DNA of 37,992 bases. Origin: Limnohabitans sp. GTDB lineage: Bacteria > Pseudomonadota > Gammaproteobacteria > Burkholderiales > Burkholderiaceae_C. The stretch lies in NCBI GenBank assembly GCA_009693305.1, contig SHXN01000002.1, forward strand, positions 1 through 37,992, read 5' to 3'. The translations under genes were made by a program, and so were the position numbers. The number at the start of each line of letters is the position of its first letter. Within the stretch, counting starts at the first letter, position 1. The notes beneath the pieces are model-generated. The model had not been told where the DNA came from. It saw only the letters and a program-made list of their open reading frames with translations, and made no database searches. This document shows, piece after piece, positions 1 through 29,984 of the stretch.

Positions 1-32
1 AAAATTACACGGCTCAACACATCGAAAGCTTC

Positions 33-554
33 ATGAATCAGTACGAAAAACACATTTCGCACGTACTTGTAGCGCATACAAAATTACGTACCTACAACAA
101 ATCAAGGCATCAAATTCAGGCTATGGCTGAGCAGGCAAAAAAGTACTGCAGATATGCGCTCAACAGCTTTTACAAACTACTTTATCCAAATTCAACAAAT
201 AAGCCAGTTCGCAATCCTTGGTTGTTTAAACCACTTACTTTAGTAACTATTGAAGGCGCGAAAGAAACTACAGACAAGGCACAAACAATTCACTTCAACA
301 TATCACTAGGCAAATTACCCGAAGCTCTGACTACAACTGACATAGAAACCCTCTTCAAACACGCATGGCACGAAAAGGCTGGACAAAGTCAAGATGTAAA
401 GGCATACGACTACACCAAGGCTCAAGGACAACAGGGTTGGATAGGCTACACACTAAAAGAGGCACAACAGGCTAAAACAAAGGCATGGGCGACTGACGGA
501 ATCTGGGACGTACAAAACTGCTGGATTCCCTTCGCCGCACTTAACGCAGACTGA
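33..554 (+). CDS. hypothetical protein; possible C-terminal part of a replication-initiator-like protein (GWIGYTLKE segment)
   Basis: Open 173-aa ORF; the 'GWIGYTLKEA' segment only loosely resembles the YxxK region of rolling-circle Rep proteins; no firm family call. Confidence 0.4.
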   Translation: MNQYEKHISHVLVAHTKLRTYNKSRHQIQAMAEQAKKYCRYALNSFYKLLYPNSTNKPVRNPWLFKPLTLVTIEGAKETTDKAQTIHFNISLGKLPEALTTTDIETLFKHAWHEKAGQSQDVKAYDYTKAQGQQGWIGYTLKEAQQAKTKAWATDGIWDVQNCWIPFAALNAD

Positions 555-705
555 AGTTACGTTAAGTTCTACATTACTGTGATTCTGGAAACGGGTTCAT
601 AGTTCTTGAGCGTGTCTGTCTGATTCGTAACAATAACAATTAGAAGAAATTAAGGAAATAATCTAAACTGACACAATACAGATAGCAATGATTTGAAGGT
701 ACTAA

Positions 706-975
706 ATGAATGAGATTCTTCATCATGAAGTCAGAGAAAACAATCAGGAACTAACTCCTGGACACTGGTTCTTTCATACAGGGCAATGGTGTATATGCGC
801 TCAAGCATAAAAAAAAGAAAATGGACTTTGGACTGCTAAGATTCAATTGCCGGTTAAAGGGAAAGACTTCGGCAATGGAGAGTTCAAAACACTCAGCGAA
901 TTAAAACAACATCTTTCTAAATATTACGCAACAAAGATTATTAGAGGCAAGTTACCAAGAGTACTTGACCTCTAA
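706..975 (+). pseudogene. small hypothetical protein interrupted by an in-frame TAA (808-810)
   Basis: Same frame on both sides of the stop: MNEILHHEVRENNQELTPGHWFFHTGQWCICAQA*KKENGLWTAKIQLPVKGKDFGNGEFKTLSELKQHLSKYYATKIIRGKLPRVLDL*. Confidence 0.5.
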
Positions 976-996
976 TTTACTTTTTACACACTCACT

Positions 997-1493
997 ATGA
1001 CTAAGAAAATCAATAATAAAAATGCAAGAGCCAGTTCTGCTCAATTCTTCGTTGCTGGAGAGCTTTGCAGACGTGATTTGGTTGCTGTAGTAACAATGGG
1101 AAATTCACCGAACACTGACGTACTTTGTAGCAATGCAGTAGGAACCAAGTTTGTTCACATACAAGTTAAAACTTATGAGCCCGGACACAAAAAGGTAGCT
1201 GTTGGGAAGAAGGCTGAGATTGACTACGGCAAAAACTTTATTTGGGTACTAGCAGGAATTCCAACTACAAAAAAACTGATGCGTTTGAGTACTACGTAAT
1301 CCCATCAAGCATTGTTGCTAGGAATGTAAAGAAAGATTACGACAAGTGGCTAAAAACTCCGGGAAAGAAAAGTCAACAGCACAATCCGACAGACATGCGG
1401 ATTATTGACTTGCCTCCCAAAGCCTCTATTTCTGGCTGGCGTGTGGATGAGTACAAGAATCGCTGGGACATCATTGAAAAGCTACTAAGTTAA
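997..1493 (+). pseudogene. hypothetical protein, PD-(D/E)XK-nuclease-like (TDVL...IQVKT), split by a -1 frameshift at an A7 run
   Basis: ORFs 997-1299 and 1242-1493 join as ...WVLAGIPTTKK/TDAFEYYVIPSS... if a -1 shift occurs at ACA AAA AAA CTG. The nuclease-like call rests on a D...QVK motif only. Confidence 0.5.
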
Positions 1494-2152
1494 CCCATCT
1501 CGGGATCTAAATTATTAGCGCCAGCCGTAGGAAAAAACTTTTGGATAAAGTTCATTGCTTCGGTTATGCCGTCTTCAGCATCCAAATAGTCTGAGGAGTC
1601 TTCATCACCATCCCATTCGTGGAATAGAAAATAATTTGAATCTCCCAGCTTTGCTAGAGACTCTAAAAATTCATCAACGAATACAGCGTAATCTAACTTG
1701 GTGAATTCTTTGAAATATTCTTTATCAACATCATTCATCAAACTTGAATAACCGCCCATATCTTCGTGGTCTACAGCGTCATACACAAAGATACGATTTT
1801 TTCTGCCAAGTCCAGCACACAATATTTTTTGTGTAGCTAGATTAAAAAATAAGAAATCAGGTTGATGAACAGTGCTATCTGCTATCCAATTCATTTTGGG
1901 ATAAATCTTGGCTAATCTTGATGCCGTATCAATTTCATAGTTATCACTCAAGTGAATTATCAGCAAGTGATTAATGCAGTCGGTTCCAAGTGCCTTGTCC
2001 TTGGCTTGCACAAACTCTAATTGAGTACACCCTTCCCAGTCATTGTCTTGACTCTTCAGAAAATCATGTGAGTACGCATCTACTAGATAACCAGCCTTGC
2101 GTAGGTCGTTGAATAGCTGGGTGACTTCTTCAGTACCGCTATGAATTTCCAT
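1490..2152 (-). CDS. hypothetical acidic protein
   Basis: Open 220-aa ORF, convergent with the upstream gene with a 4-bp overlap; no recognised family. Confidence 0.5.
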   Translation of the reverse strand: MEIHSGTEEVTQLFNDLRKAGYLVDAYSHDFLKSQDNDWEGCTQLEFVQAKDKALGTDCINHLLIIHLSDNYEIDTASRLAKIYPKMNWIADSTVHQPDFLFFNLATQKILCAGLGRKNRIFVYDAVDHEDMGGYSSLMNDVDKEYFKEFTKLDYAVFVDEFLESLAKLGDSNYFLFHEWDGDEDSSDYLDAEDGITEAMNFIQKFFPTAGANNLDPEMG

Positions 2153-2306
2153 TTTTTCACCTATTGCAGTTAGCCTAAATTATGACAAATTTTCAACAAT
2201 TGGTACACTAGTAACAGTTGGAAAACTGCTATCTCCTTGAGATTCTTAGAGATTCCAGCCTAGCGAAAAGTCCATTTTTAATTAAAAACGAGTTCATGAA
2301 GAGAAA

Positions 2307-2379
2307 GAGCCTGAGCTGGCTCGACTCTTTTGGCTTAACTCCTTAGAGTCCCGACCGACATGAAAAACATGTCTTTTTT
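2307..2379 (+). promoter_or_regulatory. structured leader: hairpin GAGCC/GGCTC followed by terminator-like hairpin GACATG-AAAAA-CATGTC-TTTTTT
   Basis: Inverted repeats at 2307-2311/2318-2322 and 2357-2362/2368-2373, with T6 at 2374-2379, just upstream of the RBS of the 2399 ORF. Confidence 0.4.
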
Positions 2380-2398
2380 AACTTTAAAGGAGATTCAA

Positions 2399-2767
2399 AT
2401 GAGTTCACAAGTTTATGTAAAAGGTTCAGATATTTACGATGCCGCAGTAGCAGGTGCTAAACGTGGTTACAACAGGAGTACGGATGATTCGTCAGCATAC
2501 GCAGATGCCTTAAACAAGTGTTTGCAGAAACTGCTTTCATCTTGTTCCCGAGAACAACGTCGTCGCGTTCTAAAGGGCACAGGGGGCACATGGAAAACTG
2601 CGGTTTTACCTTTGTCCTTAGCAATGATTCATAAGCATATTGGAGGTATTCCTTGTGAAGAACACGCTCGTGTTTATCTTTCTACTGACCCATTTAATGT
2701 GTTCGATATACCCATTGTTCACTGGGATCGTTTTGTAGAAAAAAACAAGTACCTCAAAGTAGCTTAA
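2399..2767 (+). CDS. hypothetical protein (122 aa)
   Basis: Start ATG preceded by AAAGGAGA; MSSQVYVKGSDIYDAAVAGAKRGYN... The annotated 2360 start is less likely. Confidence 0.6.
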   Translation: MSSQVYVKGSDIYDAAVAGAKRGYNRSTDDSSAYADALNKCLQKLLSSCSREQRRRVLKGTGGTWKTAVLPLSLAMIHKHIGGIPCEEHARVYLSTDPFNVFDIPIVHWDRFVEKNKYLKVA

Positions 2768-3432
2768 TTAGATAAGCTCAACAGCACTACGCTTCATGTC
2801 ATCATTTGCATCTATGTATGACTGCGTAGTGCTGATGTTTCTATGTCCAGCCAAACTCATCAACACACGGACTGAAATTCCTTTTGCGGCTAAGTTTGTG
2901 ATAAATGTTCTACGAGGCGAGTGGCTACTGGCACCATCAATACCAGCCCTCTTAAAAAGGTAATGAAAATGCTGTGTCAACGTGTTTGCAGTAAATCCAT
3001 CACTAGTTATTTTTTGGCTGTAAATTAGTTTGTCATTGGGTTTAACGTTACTCAATTTACGAACGTAAATATCTAATTCTTTTTCAGTCTTTCACTAACA
3101 AAAACAGTACGTGCATGTCCGCCTTTTGTTTGGCTGGGTTTTAACTGGATTTCTTTTTTAACATTTCCATCCCGCCCTACTACATCGGCTATTCGCAAAC
3201 TAGCGGCCTCACCCACACGCAAGCCAGCGTAATTCATGAGAAGTAGGCATGCTCTGTTACGAGCGGCATGTTTGCGTGTTGCCACGTAATCCAGCACCCT
3301 GCGTAGTTCTGTAGCTGTTAGTGTTTTAGCTTGTTTGGACACTGCAATCTCCTTCAAAGTAATGTTTGCTGTGTCAACAGTATGTTTTCTTTTGTTGGAA
3401 ATTCCTACCGAAATTGATTCTTTTCTAGTCAC
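2768..3432 (-). pseudogene. tyrosine recombinase/integrase, frameshifted
   Basis: N-terminal ORF 3073-3432 (NYAGLRVGEAASLRIADV, Arg I region) and C-terminal ORF 2768-3055 (SHSPRRTFITNLA...LAGHRNISTTQSYI) are in different frames; joining at CTG AAA AAG gives ...LKKELDIYVRKLSNVKPN.... Confidence 0.7.
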
Positions 3433-3671
3433 TAAATTTTCCTCTTCAATATCATGAGGTTACGCGGTGTATACGCATGAAAAGCGCACAAACAAAACTT
3501 TCTCGCATTTCCTTACATTTGTATTTATGCCGAATTCCGTCGTGAATTAGCCACGAAATTAGCTGAGCTTGTTTAAATGCCCTATATGCTTATTTAGTAA
3601 TAGCCCGCTACCCAAGCAAGTAGATAGAAAAATAACTGCTCAAACGAGCGAATTGAAGCTGAAATCCCAAT

Positions 3672-3865
3672 TTAATCTTCCTCCTCATTGTTAACCTTGT
3701 CGTATTCCTCCATGAGTGCATTGTGAAGTTCCTCGGAGAAGTAGTGAGGGTGAAGCATTATTTGTTGCATTGAAATGATTTTCCTCATTTCCTCTACTTC
3801 AACCTGAAAGACAGAGGCAATTTCCTCAACAGTTAGACGAACTGGAATGCCAGTGAATAGATGTG
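3672..3865 (-). pseudogene. 3' fragment of a hypothetical CDS truncated by the IS256 element
   Basis: Minus-strand open frame without its own start: ...FTGIPVRLTVEEIASVFQVEVEEMRKIISMQQIMLHPHYFSEELHNALMEEYDKVNNEEED*. It runs into the presumed IS left end. Confidence 0.5.
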
Positions 3866-4988
3866 AGGGGGTGTACTGAATTTTGTGTAAACGGTCTAAT
3901 GGCGGGTAACCGTCGAATTTCCAGGAGTGGATATGACCGTCAATTCAAAGAAAGCAGTACCCAAAGATCTCATCGACATTTTGCTGGCTGATTACAAAAA
4001 GCCAGAAGATTTGATTGGTGAGAATGGGCTTTTAAAGCAGTTACTTGTCGAGCGTGCCCTAGATGCCGAGATGTCCGAGCACCTTGGGCATGATAAGAAC
4101 GCACCTGTCACCAACCCCGATGGCAACGCTCGCAATGGCAAAAGCAAGAAGACGCTCAAGGGTGAGTTTGGTGAGTTGCCCACCGAGGTTCCAAGGGACC
4201 AGCAAGGCAGCTTTGTGCCGCAATTGGTCCCCAAACACCAGACGCGTTGGGCGGGCTTTGACGACAAGATTTTGTCACTCTATGCACGCGGCATGACGGT
4301 GCGAGAGATCCAGGGCCACCTGGAAGAAATGTATGGCACAGAGGTCTCGCCCACATTGATCTCGTCTGTCACAGACGCCGTTGTGGAGGAAGTTAAAGCT
4401 TGGCAGTCCCGCCCCCTTGATGCCGTGTACCCCATTGTTTATCTGGACTGCATTCACGTCAAAGTACGTGACTCTGGCGTGGTTAAAGCCAAGGCGGTGT
4501 ACCTTGCCATTGGCATCGACATGACCGGCAACAAAGAAGTGCTGGGCTTGTGGATTGCACAAAACGAGGGAGCCAAATTCTGGCTGCAAGTGGTCACAGA
4601 ACTGAAGAATCGTGGCGTGCAAGACATCCTGATTGCCTGCGTGGACGGCTTAAAGGGCTTTCCTGAAGCGATAGAGACGGTGTACCCGTTGGCTAAGGTG
4701 CAACTTTGCATCGTGCACATGGTGCGCCACAGTTTGAACTATGTGTCGTGGAAGACGCGCAAGGAAGTGGCCGCGGCTCTCAAATCGATCTACGCCTGCG
4801 CCACGGTGGAGCAAGCGTCACAAGCCTTGGATGAGTTTGAATCGGTGTGGGGCAAAGACTACCCACCCATCGTACAAAGCTGGCGGCGTAACTGGCAACG
4901 CATCATTCCGTTCTTTGACTATCCACCTGAGATTCGCAAGGTGATTTATACGACCAATGCCATCGAGTCTGTGAACATGAGCCTGCGC
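3866..4988 (+). mobile_element. IS256-family insertion sequence, 3'-truncated
   Basis: Putative left end near GGGGGTGTACTGAATTTTGTGTAAACGG, transposase ORF from 3927; sequence ends at the 120-bp element with no right end seen. Confidence 0.7.
3927..4988 (+). pseudogene. IS256-family (mutator-type) transposase, C-terminally truncated
   Basis: MSEHLGHDKN..., YLDCIHVKVR, CVDGLKGFPEAIETVYP, YTTNAIESVNMSLR are typical of IS256-family transposases; the C-terminus after MSLR is lost and replaced by element-encoded residues. Confidence 0.9.
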
Positions 4989-5108
4989 GGTTCTGTCGCA
5001 ATAAGGAATTTTGAAGAATCTTACCTACTACCAGTAGCGTATTTTTCCTATGCCAAACACTACCTATAGCGTTCCTGAAAAACTGGGAATCCTTATTGCG
5101 ACAGAACC
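4989..5108 (-). mobile_element. 120-bp MITE-like element, copy 1
   Basis: Perfect 19-bp TIRs GGTTCTGTCGCAATAAGGA; reverse complement identical to the copies at 28693 and 29347. Flanks GCCTGCGC and GTTTAATG do not match. Confidence 0.9.
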
Positions 5109-5488
5109 GTTTAATGGCGGGTGAAAAAATTGATATCCATTTGGAGCCTGAAGAAGCCTTTGGCGATTACAACGAAATGTTGGTGTTTTTAGAACCCAAA
5201 AATCTTTTCCCGCCCGAATTGGAAGAAGACATGACGATTGAAGGTCACGCACTTCCTGCGCAATGCAACCCCGATGCACCTCATGACGTTATTTATACCG
5301 TTACAGAAATTTATCCAGAACACGTGGTGTTAGACGGCAATCATCCATTGGCTGGCATTGCCTTGCGTCTGCATCTCACCGTCGTGAGTGTTCGCGAAGC
5401 ATCATCAGAGGAAATTGAAAAGGGAACGGTGGGCGTTGGATTTTTTAATGTGCAACCCGAAGCACTAGGAAGTCCGCACTTGCACTGA
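5109..5488 (+). pseudogene. SlyD-like FKBP-type peptidyl-prolyl isomerase, 5'-truncated
   Basis: MAGEKIDIHLEPEEAFGDYNEMLVFLEP...IAGIALRLHLTV-type content (GNHPLAGIALRLHLTVVSV) matches the C-terminal part of SlyD-type FKBPs; the N-terminal FKBP portion is missing at the element. Confidence 0.8.
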
Positions 5489-28287: not shown

Positions 28288-28684
28288 GGCTACAGTCTAG
28301 CGAAAAATCAATGACCTGTTTTGAAATGCAGTTAAGTTTTGCGTTGTGTCAAAGACATGGCCTTTGCAACACCCCTCAAAATATGCACCTCTTTGAGGGT
28401 GAGTTGGGCGCGATTGGCCAATTGATTGAGTCTGGGCATGAGTTTTTTGGGCGACTCAGGGTCTAAAAATCCGATATCCATTAAGGACTGCTCCCAATGC
28501 GACAAGAGTCCTCCAATTTGTTGCGCATCTGCAAACGTTTCGGTGGGTGTGGCTGACTGGACTTCAAAACCACCCAAGGCCATGCGCCACTCATAAGCAA
28601 TCAATTGCACTGCGGCGGCCAAGTTGAGCGAGCCATATTTGGGGTTGGTGGGAATGCTCAGTGCAACATGACACCAATACACGT

Positions 28685-28692
28685 CTTCGTTG
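28685..28692. repeat. target site duplication, left copy (CTTCGTTG)
   Basis: Identical to 29467-29474, immediately outside the composite unit. Confidence 0.9.
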
Positions 28693-28812
28693 GGTTCTGT
28701 CGCAATAAGGATTCCCAGTTTTTCAGGAACGCTATAGGTAGTGTTTGGCATAGGAAAAATACGCTACTGGTAGTAGGTAAGATTCTTCAAAATTCCTTAT
28801 TGCGACAGAACC
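28693..28812 (+). mobile_element. 120-bp MITE-like element, copy 2
   Basis: 19-bp TIRs; read as identical to copy 3 (29347-29466) and to the reverse complement of copy 1. Confidence 0.92.
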
Positions 28813-28827
28813 TTAATATTTGCTACC

Positions 28828-28854
28828 AAATAAACGGACAAAGTCCGTTTATTT
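28828..28854. terminator. perfect 12-bp inverted repeat with 3-nt loop downstream of the integrase fragment
   Basis: AAATAAACGGAC-AAA-GTCCGTTTATTT. Confidence 0.5.
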
Positions 28855-28879
28855 CTTAAGTTTGCTCATAATCTAATCC

Positions 28880-29346
28880 TTAGCTCGCCGTTGGTAAAAA
28901 ACCAGCACTCTGTGGCGGGGAAAGTGTTGGTGAGAAAAGGTGTCCTACTGCACGTGTGACAGCATTGGATGCATCAAGCAGCGCGTCTTGTGACAAATGG
29001 CTGTAGCGTTGTGTAGTTTTAATTTGTGTGTGCCCAAGCAGGAGCTGAACCTCGTATAAGGTGCGACCAGAGTTGACAAGGAACGATGCAAAGGTGTGAC
29101 GCAAATCATGTATGCGTACATCAGAGAGCCCCGCCGCTTTGCGTGCCGTGTGCCATGAGTGATAAATCGACTGATACGGCTTTAATGTCTTTGGGTTGGG
29201 AAACGCCCAATCACAGTTGTAGCGGGGCATTGATTCCAACAGAGTAATCACACCATCAGACAGGGGAACATGCCGAGGCTTGCCAAGCTTGACTGTGAGA
29301 ATAGGCGCTACACCAGTAAACTGCTTCTCGATCAGGCGCGCAAAAC
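28880..29346 (-). pseudogene. tyrosine recombinase C-terminal fragment (passenger between MITE copies)
   Basis: KPRHVPLSDGVITLLE..., VRIHDLRHTFASFLVNSG, LLGHTQIKTTQRYSHL; the N-terminal domain and first catalytic Arg region are absent. Confidence 0.88.
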
Positions 29347-29466
29347 GGTTCTGTCGCAATAAGGATTCCCAGTTTTTCAGGAACGCTATAGGTAGTGTTT
29401 GGCATAGGAAAAATACGCTACTGGTAGTAGGTAAGATTCTTCAAAATTCCTTATTGCGACAGAACC
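29347..29466 (+). mobile_element. 120-bp MITE-like element, copy 3
   Basis: Identical by reading to copy 2, direct orientation. Confidence 0.92.
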
Positions 29467-29474
29467 CTTCGTTG
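29467..29474. repeat. target site duplication, right copy (CTTCGTTG)
   Basis: Matches 28685-28692. Confidence 0.9.
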
Positions 29475-29984
29475 CGCATGCCAAAACGCTCAGAACCAAA
29501 CAAAAACGCAATACCTTCAATGGACTGCGTTTGTTGTGTCAATATTTCAAAATGTGCGCGTGGGGCCCGTGTGGGAGGACCAAAATCGCGCGGTGTCATC
29601 GCCGTTGCACATAGATGTGTAACGCCGTCTAGGGCTTCGTCCAAGGTTTCCACAATACGCGCGTTTTCAAGCACATCCAGCGCACCGCTTGATCGTTGAA
29701 TGGTTTCTTCGCGCCTTAAAACATTGAGCCAACGAGGAACCACCAACACCAAATCGTCAAAGCCCATGACTTTCATGGCGCGTGCGGTTGCACCGACATT
29801 TCCTGCGTAGCTGGTTTCAATTAAAACGAATCGGGTCTTCATGGGTCTAAAATCAGGGTTTTCTGCGTGCGCATCTTCGATCGCATTGTTTGGCTCTTCT
29901 TGCTGGAATGGCACTGCATCTTGATGCGGGGCCCCTGGCGCACAATTTATGACATCCTCTGCATCCTCATCTTCCATTCATCCC

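Follow-up and report, generated by a model that had tools for sequence, protein, structure and literature searches.

The window analysed here is a stretch of 37,992 nucleotides from a Limnohabitans sp. (contig C103 of the draft assembly). At positions 4989 to 5108, on the plus strand, an element of 120 bp lies between two truncated genes, an IS256 transposase gene of which the 5' part is left and a slyD-like gene of which the 3' part is left. This arrangement raises the question of how so small an element came to lie between the remains of two genes, and where the missing parts of these genes are. Miniature elements of this kind (MITEs) are mostly regarded as small inserts that spread quietly. 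As the 120-bp MITE of this genome spread, it seems to have broken the chromosome and put it together anew, with slyD and trmJ among the genes split. All of the evidence comes from one draft assembly (2.14 Mb, 181 contigs, 82% complete), and the genome comparisons covered the searched and fetched stretches of sequence.

The 120-bp element and the genes at its borders

Sequence comparison within the window showed that the borders of the element at 4989-5108 (hereafter copy 1) are exact. Two further copies, at 28693-28812 (copy 2) and 29347-29466 (copy 3), are each 100% identical to it and lie in the inverse orientation, on the minus strand. The element begins and ends with perfect 19-bp terminal inverted repeats, GGTTCTGTCGCAATAAGGA on the left (4989-5007, plus strand) and its perfect complement on the right (5090-5108, minus strand), and the predicted stem is strong (z = -6.7). 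It has no transposase gene, as is expected of a short IS6-type MITE. The assembly holds 32 copies, which are 95-100% identical; seven, copy 1 among them, are fully identical.

The same genome contains IS6 elements with the end GGTTCTGTCGCAGTAAGC (16 matches to PF13610, 15 of them over the cut-off). The first 17 bases of the MITE show one mismatch to the commonest of these IS6 ends. Because its ends match those of the IS6 elements in the same genome, the 120-bp element was assigned to the IS6-type MITEs and, as judged from its sequence, is a non-autonomous one. The first-pass annotation, which had described a third identical MITE copy between a truncated IS256 transposase and a slyD-like gene, is borne out by the exact borders, the profile matches, the inverted repeats, the copy number and the IS6 ends. 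No intact IS6 transposase gene was found among the copies examined in the assembly; each is partial or carries a frameshift or stop. Since the IS6 copies that were seen appear mutated, an active copy may lie within the gaps of the assembly.

The closest genome found was that of Betaproteobacteria bacterium WB5_2A_230 (hereafter the sister genome), whose CoaBC is 95% identical. It contains an 812-bp IS6 element and lacks the MITE. The transposase of this element matched NF033587 (transpos_IS6) over the cut-off, and the 5' end of its frame looks damaged. The MITE was absent from all 36 same-genus genomes searched and was not found in the plasmids or viral contigs searched. Two IS6 copies of the present assembly (C24:1939-2693 and C14:16865-17556) and one of the sister genome (C252:1467-2278) look mutated, with a frameshift or a shortened frame.

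On the left of copy 1, the IS256-family remnant occupies 3864-4988 on the plus strand and is cut by the MITE; its left edge is approximate, being the start of similarity to the copy in the sister genome. The transposase frame, with codons from 3927, retains codons 1-354 up to the junction and matches NF033543 with 389 bits, and the Pfam Transposase_mut alignment extends to profile position 346 of 379. A search of the assembly with the PF00872 profile returned the window copy as its sole match and no IS256 3' half. The only IS256 3' remnant that a C-terminal probe found, on contig C45, begins nearer to the C terminus and is not accompanied by a MITE. The different breakpoint and the absence of the MITE ruled it out as the exact reciprocal, so that the IS256 3' reciprocal suggested by the first-pass annotation as a check was not found in the assembly. 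This remnant (C45:12303-12550) adjoins 139 bp of sequence that occur again, with 94% identity, at C24:139-277. The 8-bp flank at the left end of copy 1, GCCTGCGC (4981-4988), has no partner at any MITE or IS6 end of the assembly.

On the right, the 3' part of the slyD/FKBP-like gene occupies 5109-5488 on the plus strand and starts with the 8-bp flank GTTTAATG (5109-5116). The same 8 bp recur on contig C61, where they end the missing 5' part of slyD at the left end of another identical MITE copy (C61:8907-9026). When the two parts were rejoined with one GTTTAATG kept, the region aligned over 1200 bp with the sister genome at 87% identity, and the junction was gap-free against the intact slyD of the sister. 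The best NCBIfam match of the joined protein is PRK10737 (peptidylprolyl isomerase), below the cut-off, and its FKBP_C match (19.4 bits) falls just short of the cut-off. By this alignment, GTTTAATG is a genuine target-site duplication (TSD) divided between two MITE copies, and the 5' half of slyD is, on the same reading, relocated to C61 and not lost.

These results bear differently on the first-pass annotation. Its view of the junction as a rearrangement breakpoint agrees with the slyD 5' half on C61 and the intact sister locus, and on C61 the 5' half of slyD runs into GTTTAATG, the arrangement that it had proposed to look for. Its statement that the flanks of copy 1 are not a TSD is correct in that GCCTGCGC and GTTTAATG differ; that GTTTAATG is one half of a TSD shared with C61 could not be seen from the window alone. 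The proposed deletion of the intervening sequence fails on the slyD side, where the 5' half is present on C61. Copy 1 also marks, as had been proposed, a boundary between accessory and housekeeping DNA: to the right, beginning with slyD, the sister genome corresponds to the window over the extent compared, and of positions 1-4988 it has just an IS256 end. Two pieces of a tyrosine-recombinase (phage integrase) gene lie on the accessory side, within 2768-3432, and a truncated one lies between copies 2 and 3, at 28880-29359.

Split duplications and empty sites

The 8 bp outside both ends were read for all 32 copies (64 ends). None of the 32 copies is flanked by its own TSD, as a simple insertion would be. 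Between different copies there are eight exact 8-bp matches, every one of them joining a left end with a right end; left-left or right-right matches were not found, nor were any matches in controls read at shifted positions. About 0.02 matches are expected by chance (1024 comparisons at 1 in 65,536), against the eight found. In five of the eight pairs, the rejoined flanks are gap-free at the junction against uninterrupted sister loci over about 580-590 aligned bp. The 8-bp TSD of an IS6 element is found here in split form, with sister sites that hold the target once and without a gap. The restored loci are slyD, trmJ, an IS6 transposase gene, a region upstream of rpsB, and an interval next to rpsO and an aminotransferase-like gene; the names rpsO, rpsB and aminotransferase come from our own reading of the sequence.

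As for the other three pairs, in the sister genome the two sides of C129/C105 are not contiguous, with about 1 kb between them, and the pairs C55/C65 and C121/copy 2 have exact 8-mers and no sister match. A near-match pair, C36/C179 (7 of 8 bases), is non-contiguous in the sister and was taken as chance. The remaining 48 of the 64 ends have no partner among the ends in the assembly, which means that many events are visible from one side only. Four of the eight links fall among the seven identical copies (permutation p ~1e-5), and linked partners differ at 1.1 sites, against 3.0 on average (p ~0.001). The links among identical copies could arise partly because young insertions retain both halves more often. 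Two chains of three copies were found: copy 1 to C61 to C75, and C121 to copy 2 to copy 3.

The second chain passes through the window. The left flank of copy 2, AATATTAA, pairs with the right flank of the copy at C121:698, and its right flank, CAACGAAG, pairs with the left flank of copy 3. Copies 2 and 3 lie in direct orientation around a cargo-like segment of 534 bp (28813-29346, minus strand), which holds the 3' part of a tyrosine-recombinase gene, and CAACGAAG occurs only outside this unit (28693-29466), at 29467-29474 on the outer left and 28685-28692 on the outer right (both minus strand). This is the structure of a pseudo-compound transposon. Both outer repeats lie in a gene for a TrmJ-like SpoU methylase on the minus strand, of which the 5' part occupies 29467-29977 (listed ORF start 29977) and the 3' part 28332-28692; the listed frame of the latter now begins within copy 2. 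The sister genome has an empty site in trmJ at the position of this unit.

Proposed copy-in transposition and the rival readings

The best explanation, to which we give a probability of about three in four, is that the MITE owes its movement to an IS6 transposase acting in trans, with the copy-in (replicative) chemistry of IS26 kept. According to two accounts of the family (PMC6807381, PMC7986276), IS6 elements can give rise to cointegrates and to intramolecular deletions or inversions, and flanking repeats need not be present. In the proposed mechanism, an IS6 transposase supplied in trans would act on the gene-less MITE, and both ends of a resident copy would attack an 8-bp target. Replication would then yield two MITE copies, with the two halves of the target duplication shared out between them. 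The outcome would be a cointegrate between molecules and, inside the chromosome, either an inversion or a deletion of adjacent sequence as a lost circle. An attack on slyD would have produced copy 1 and the C61 copy. On its IS256 side, copy 1 would have retained the flank of its earlier position, the partner of which would be lost or unassembled. The other partnerless ends are likewise assumed to result from deletions, from an assembly that is 82% complete and from contig breaks at IS6 copies. We infer the action in trans of the transposase, the replication and, for each site, whether an inversion or a cointegrate arose. Copy-in transposition predicts the lack of self-TSDs, the left-right split TSDs, the pairing of like sequences as mother and daughter copies, and the chains, and each of these was observed. 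In line with it, another FKBP gene is divided between MITE copies at C157:4247-4435 and C179:8460-8531; relative to the sister, 27 bp are missing between its halves, as an adjacent deletion would leave, and the flanks form no TSD pair.

It might be considered that the MITEs first inserted simply, with TSDs of their own, and that homologous recombination between copies swapped the flanks later. The first-pass annotation had explained copy 1 by recombination between two MITE copies. Such exchange likewise predicts left-right split duplications and restored sister sites, and homologous recombination can resolve IS6 cointegrates into single copies that carry self-TSDs (PMC6807381), which could subsequently be shuffled. 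It would, however, require exchange at all 32 copies, none of which retains its own TSD, and 120 bp is a short substrate. Random exchange would moreover mostly link identical copies with older ones, whereas four of the eight links join identical copies (p ~1e-5). Recombination of this kind is possible and considerably less likely than copy-in transposition, which is favoured because of the absence of self-TSDs among the 32 copies, the IS6 ends, the 8-bp duplications and the links among identical copies.

The split pattern might also come from the assembly, if the wrong flanks of ordinary TSD-flanked insertions had been joined through the repeat. This is a draft assembly containing 32 near-identical repeats, and flanks permuted at random would presumably also yield few or no self-TSDs. 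On the other hand, no contig ends within the MITE, the nearest contig end being 68 bp away. The longer IS6 repeat, by contrast, interrupts several contigs, which end about 148 bp into it; two contigs have a 148-bp end in common. The 120-bp repeats therefore appear to have been spanned. Copies 2 and 3, in addition, return to one trmJ site on one contig, which would be rare under random mis-joining. Systematic misassembly is an unlikely source of the pattern, and we rate an artefact as quite improbable. Copy 1 itself might be imagined to have inserted simply into an IS256-slyD junction that was already there, with decay afterwards: the C45 remnant has another breakpoint, and decay of IS256 is not unusual in this genome. 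The flanks of copy 1 are, however, unlike each other, and GTTTAATG is duplicated exactly at the other slyD half, beside another identical copy. The C61 partner contradicts an older junction unless C61 is misjoined, and we consider this reading hardly credible.

The further proposal that the transposition of the MITE is purely replicative, so that each event at once inverts, deletes or fuses DNA and the element is a main rearranger of this chromosome, seems to us evenly balanced. If true, the split 8-bp duplications would log the rearrangements, and ancestral gene order could be rebuilt from them.

Relation to known elements

The MITE resembles IS26 and the IS6/IS26 family in its GGnnnTG-type ends, its 8-bp duplication and its single copies without flanking repeats (PMC6807381, PMC7986276). 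The unit in trmJ likewise resembles the pseudo-compound transposons and translocatable units of IS26, in which direct copies bound a segment and the duplication lies outside. IS26 is, by the same accounts, about 800 bp long with its own transposase, whereas the present MITE has 120 bp and none, and splits housekeeping genes. IS6-family MITEs are already known: PMC6807381 names MITEBth2 and MITEHarch3, and PMC7986276 gives two of 227 and 336 bp. They share with the 120-bp element both IS ends and the lack of a transposase. The present element differs from those covered there in being about half as long or less, in its betaproteobacterial host and in its 32 copies, and the split-TSD pattern is described for none of them in the available parts of these two papers. 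A network of split TSDs across the whole genome, produced by an IS6 MITE of 120 bp, appears to be a new variation on these elements.

The Tn3-derived TIMEs and TIME-COMPs (PMC13367494) are also miniature elements that bound and mobilise a segment, but they belong to another transposase family and are mainly plasmid-borne, in contrast to the IS6 ends and 8-bp duplications found here. MITECca01 of Cardinium (PMC9769881) is similar in that a single MITE has multiplied within one bacterial genome in a lineage-specific burst. It differs in being IS982-derived and about 240 bp long, with no split-TSD network described in the available part of that paper.

The present analysis suggests that a minimal IS6 element, two ends with about 80 bp between them, is sufficient for genome-wide rearrangement of the kind that IS26 drives on resistance plasmids. 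Paired duplications form a readable record of events, by which copy-in transposition and homologous recombination of IS6 elements can be tested against each other from the sequence alone, in an environmental chromosome.

Some MITE copies lie inside IS6 elements or a few dozen bases from them (C105:29165-29696, C134:5874, C22:15952-16105 and C137:5609-5757), and one copy splits an IS6 transposase gene with the 8-bp duplication GGCTGATG. Reading frames also run out of the MITE into split genes. In the window, a frame with a TTG start at 5096 (5096-5488) runs from copy 1 into the 3' part of slyD, and the frame of the trmJ 3' part (28332-28751) has its ATG within the MITE, so that a fusion protein is possible.
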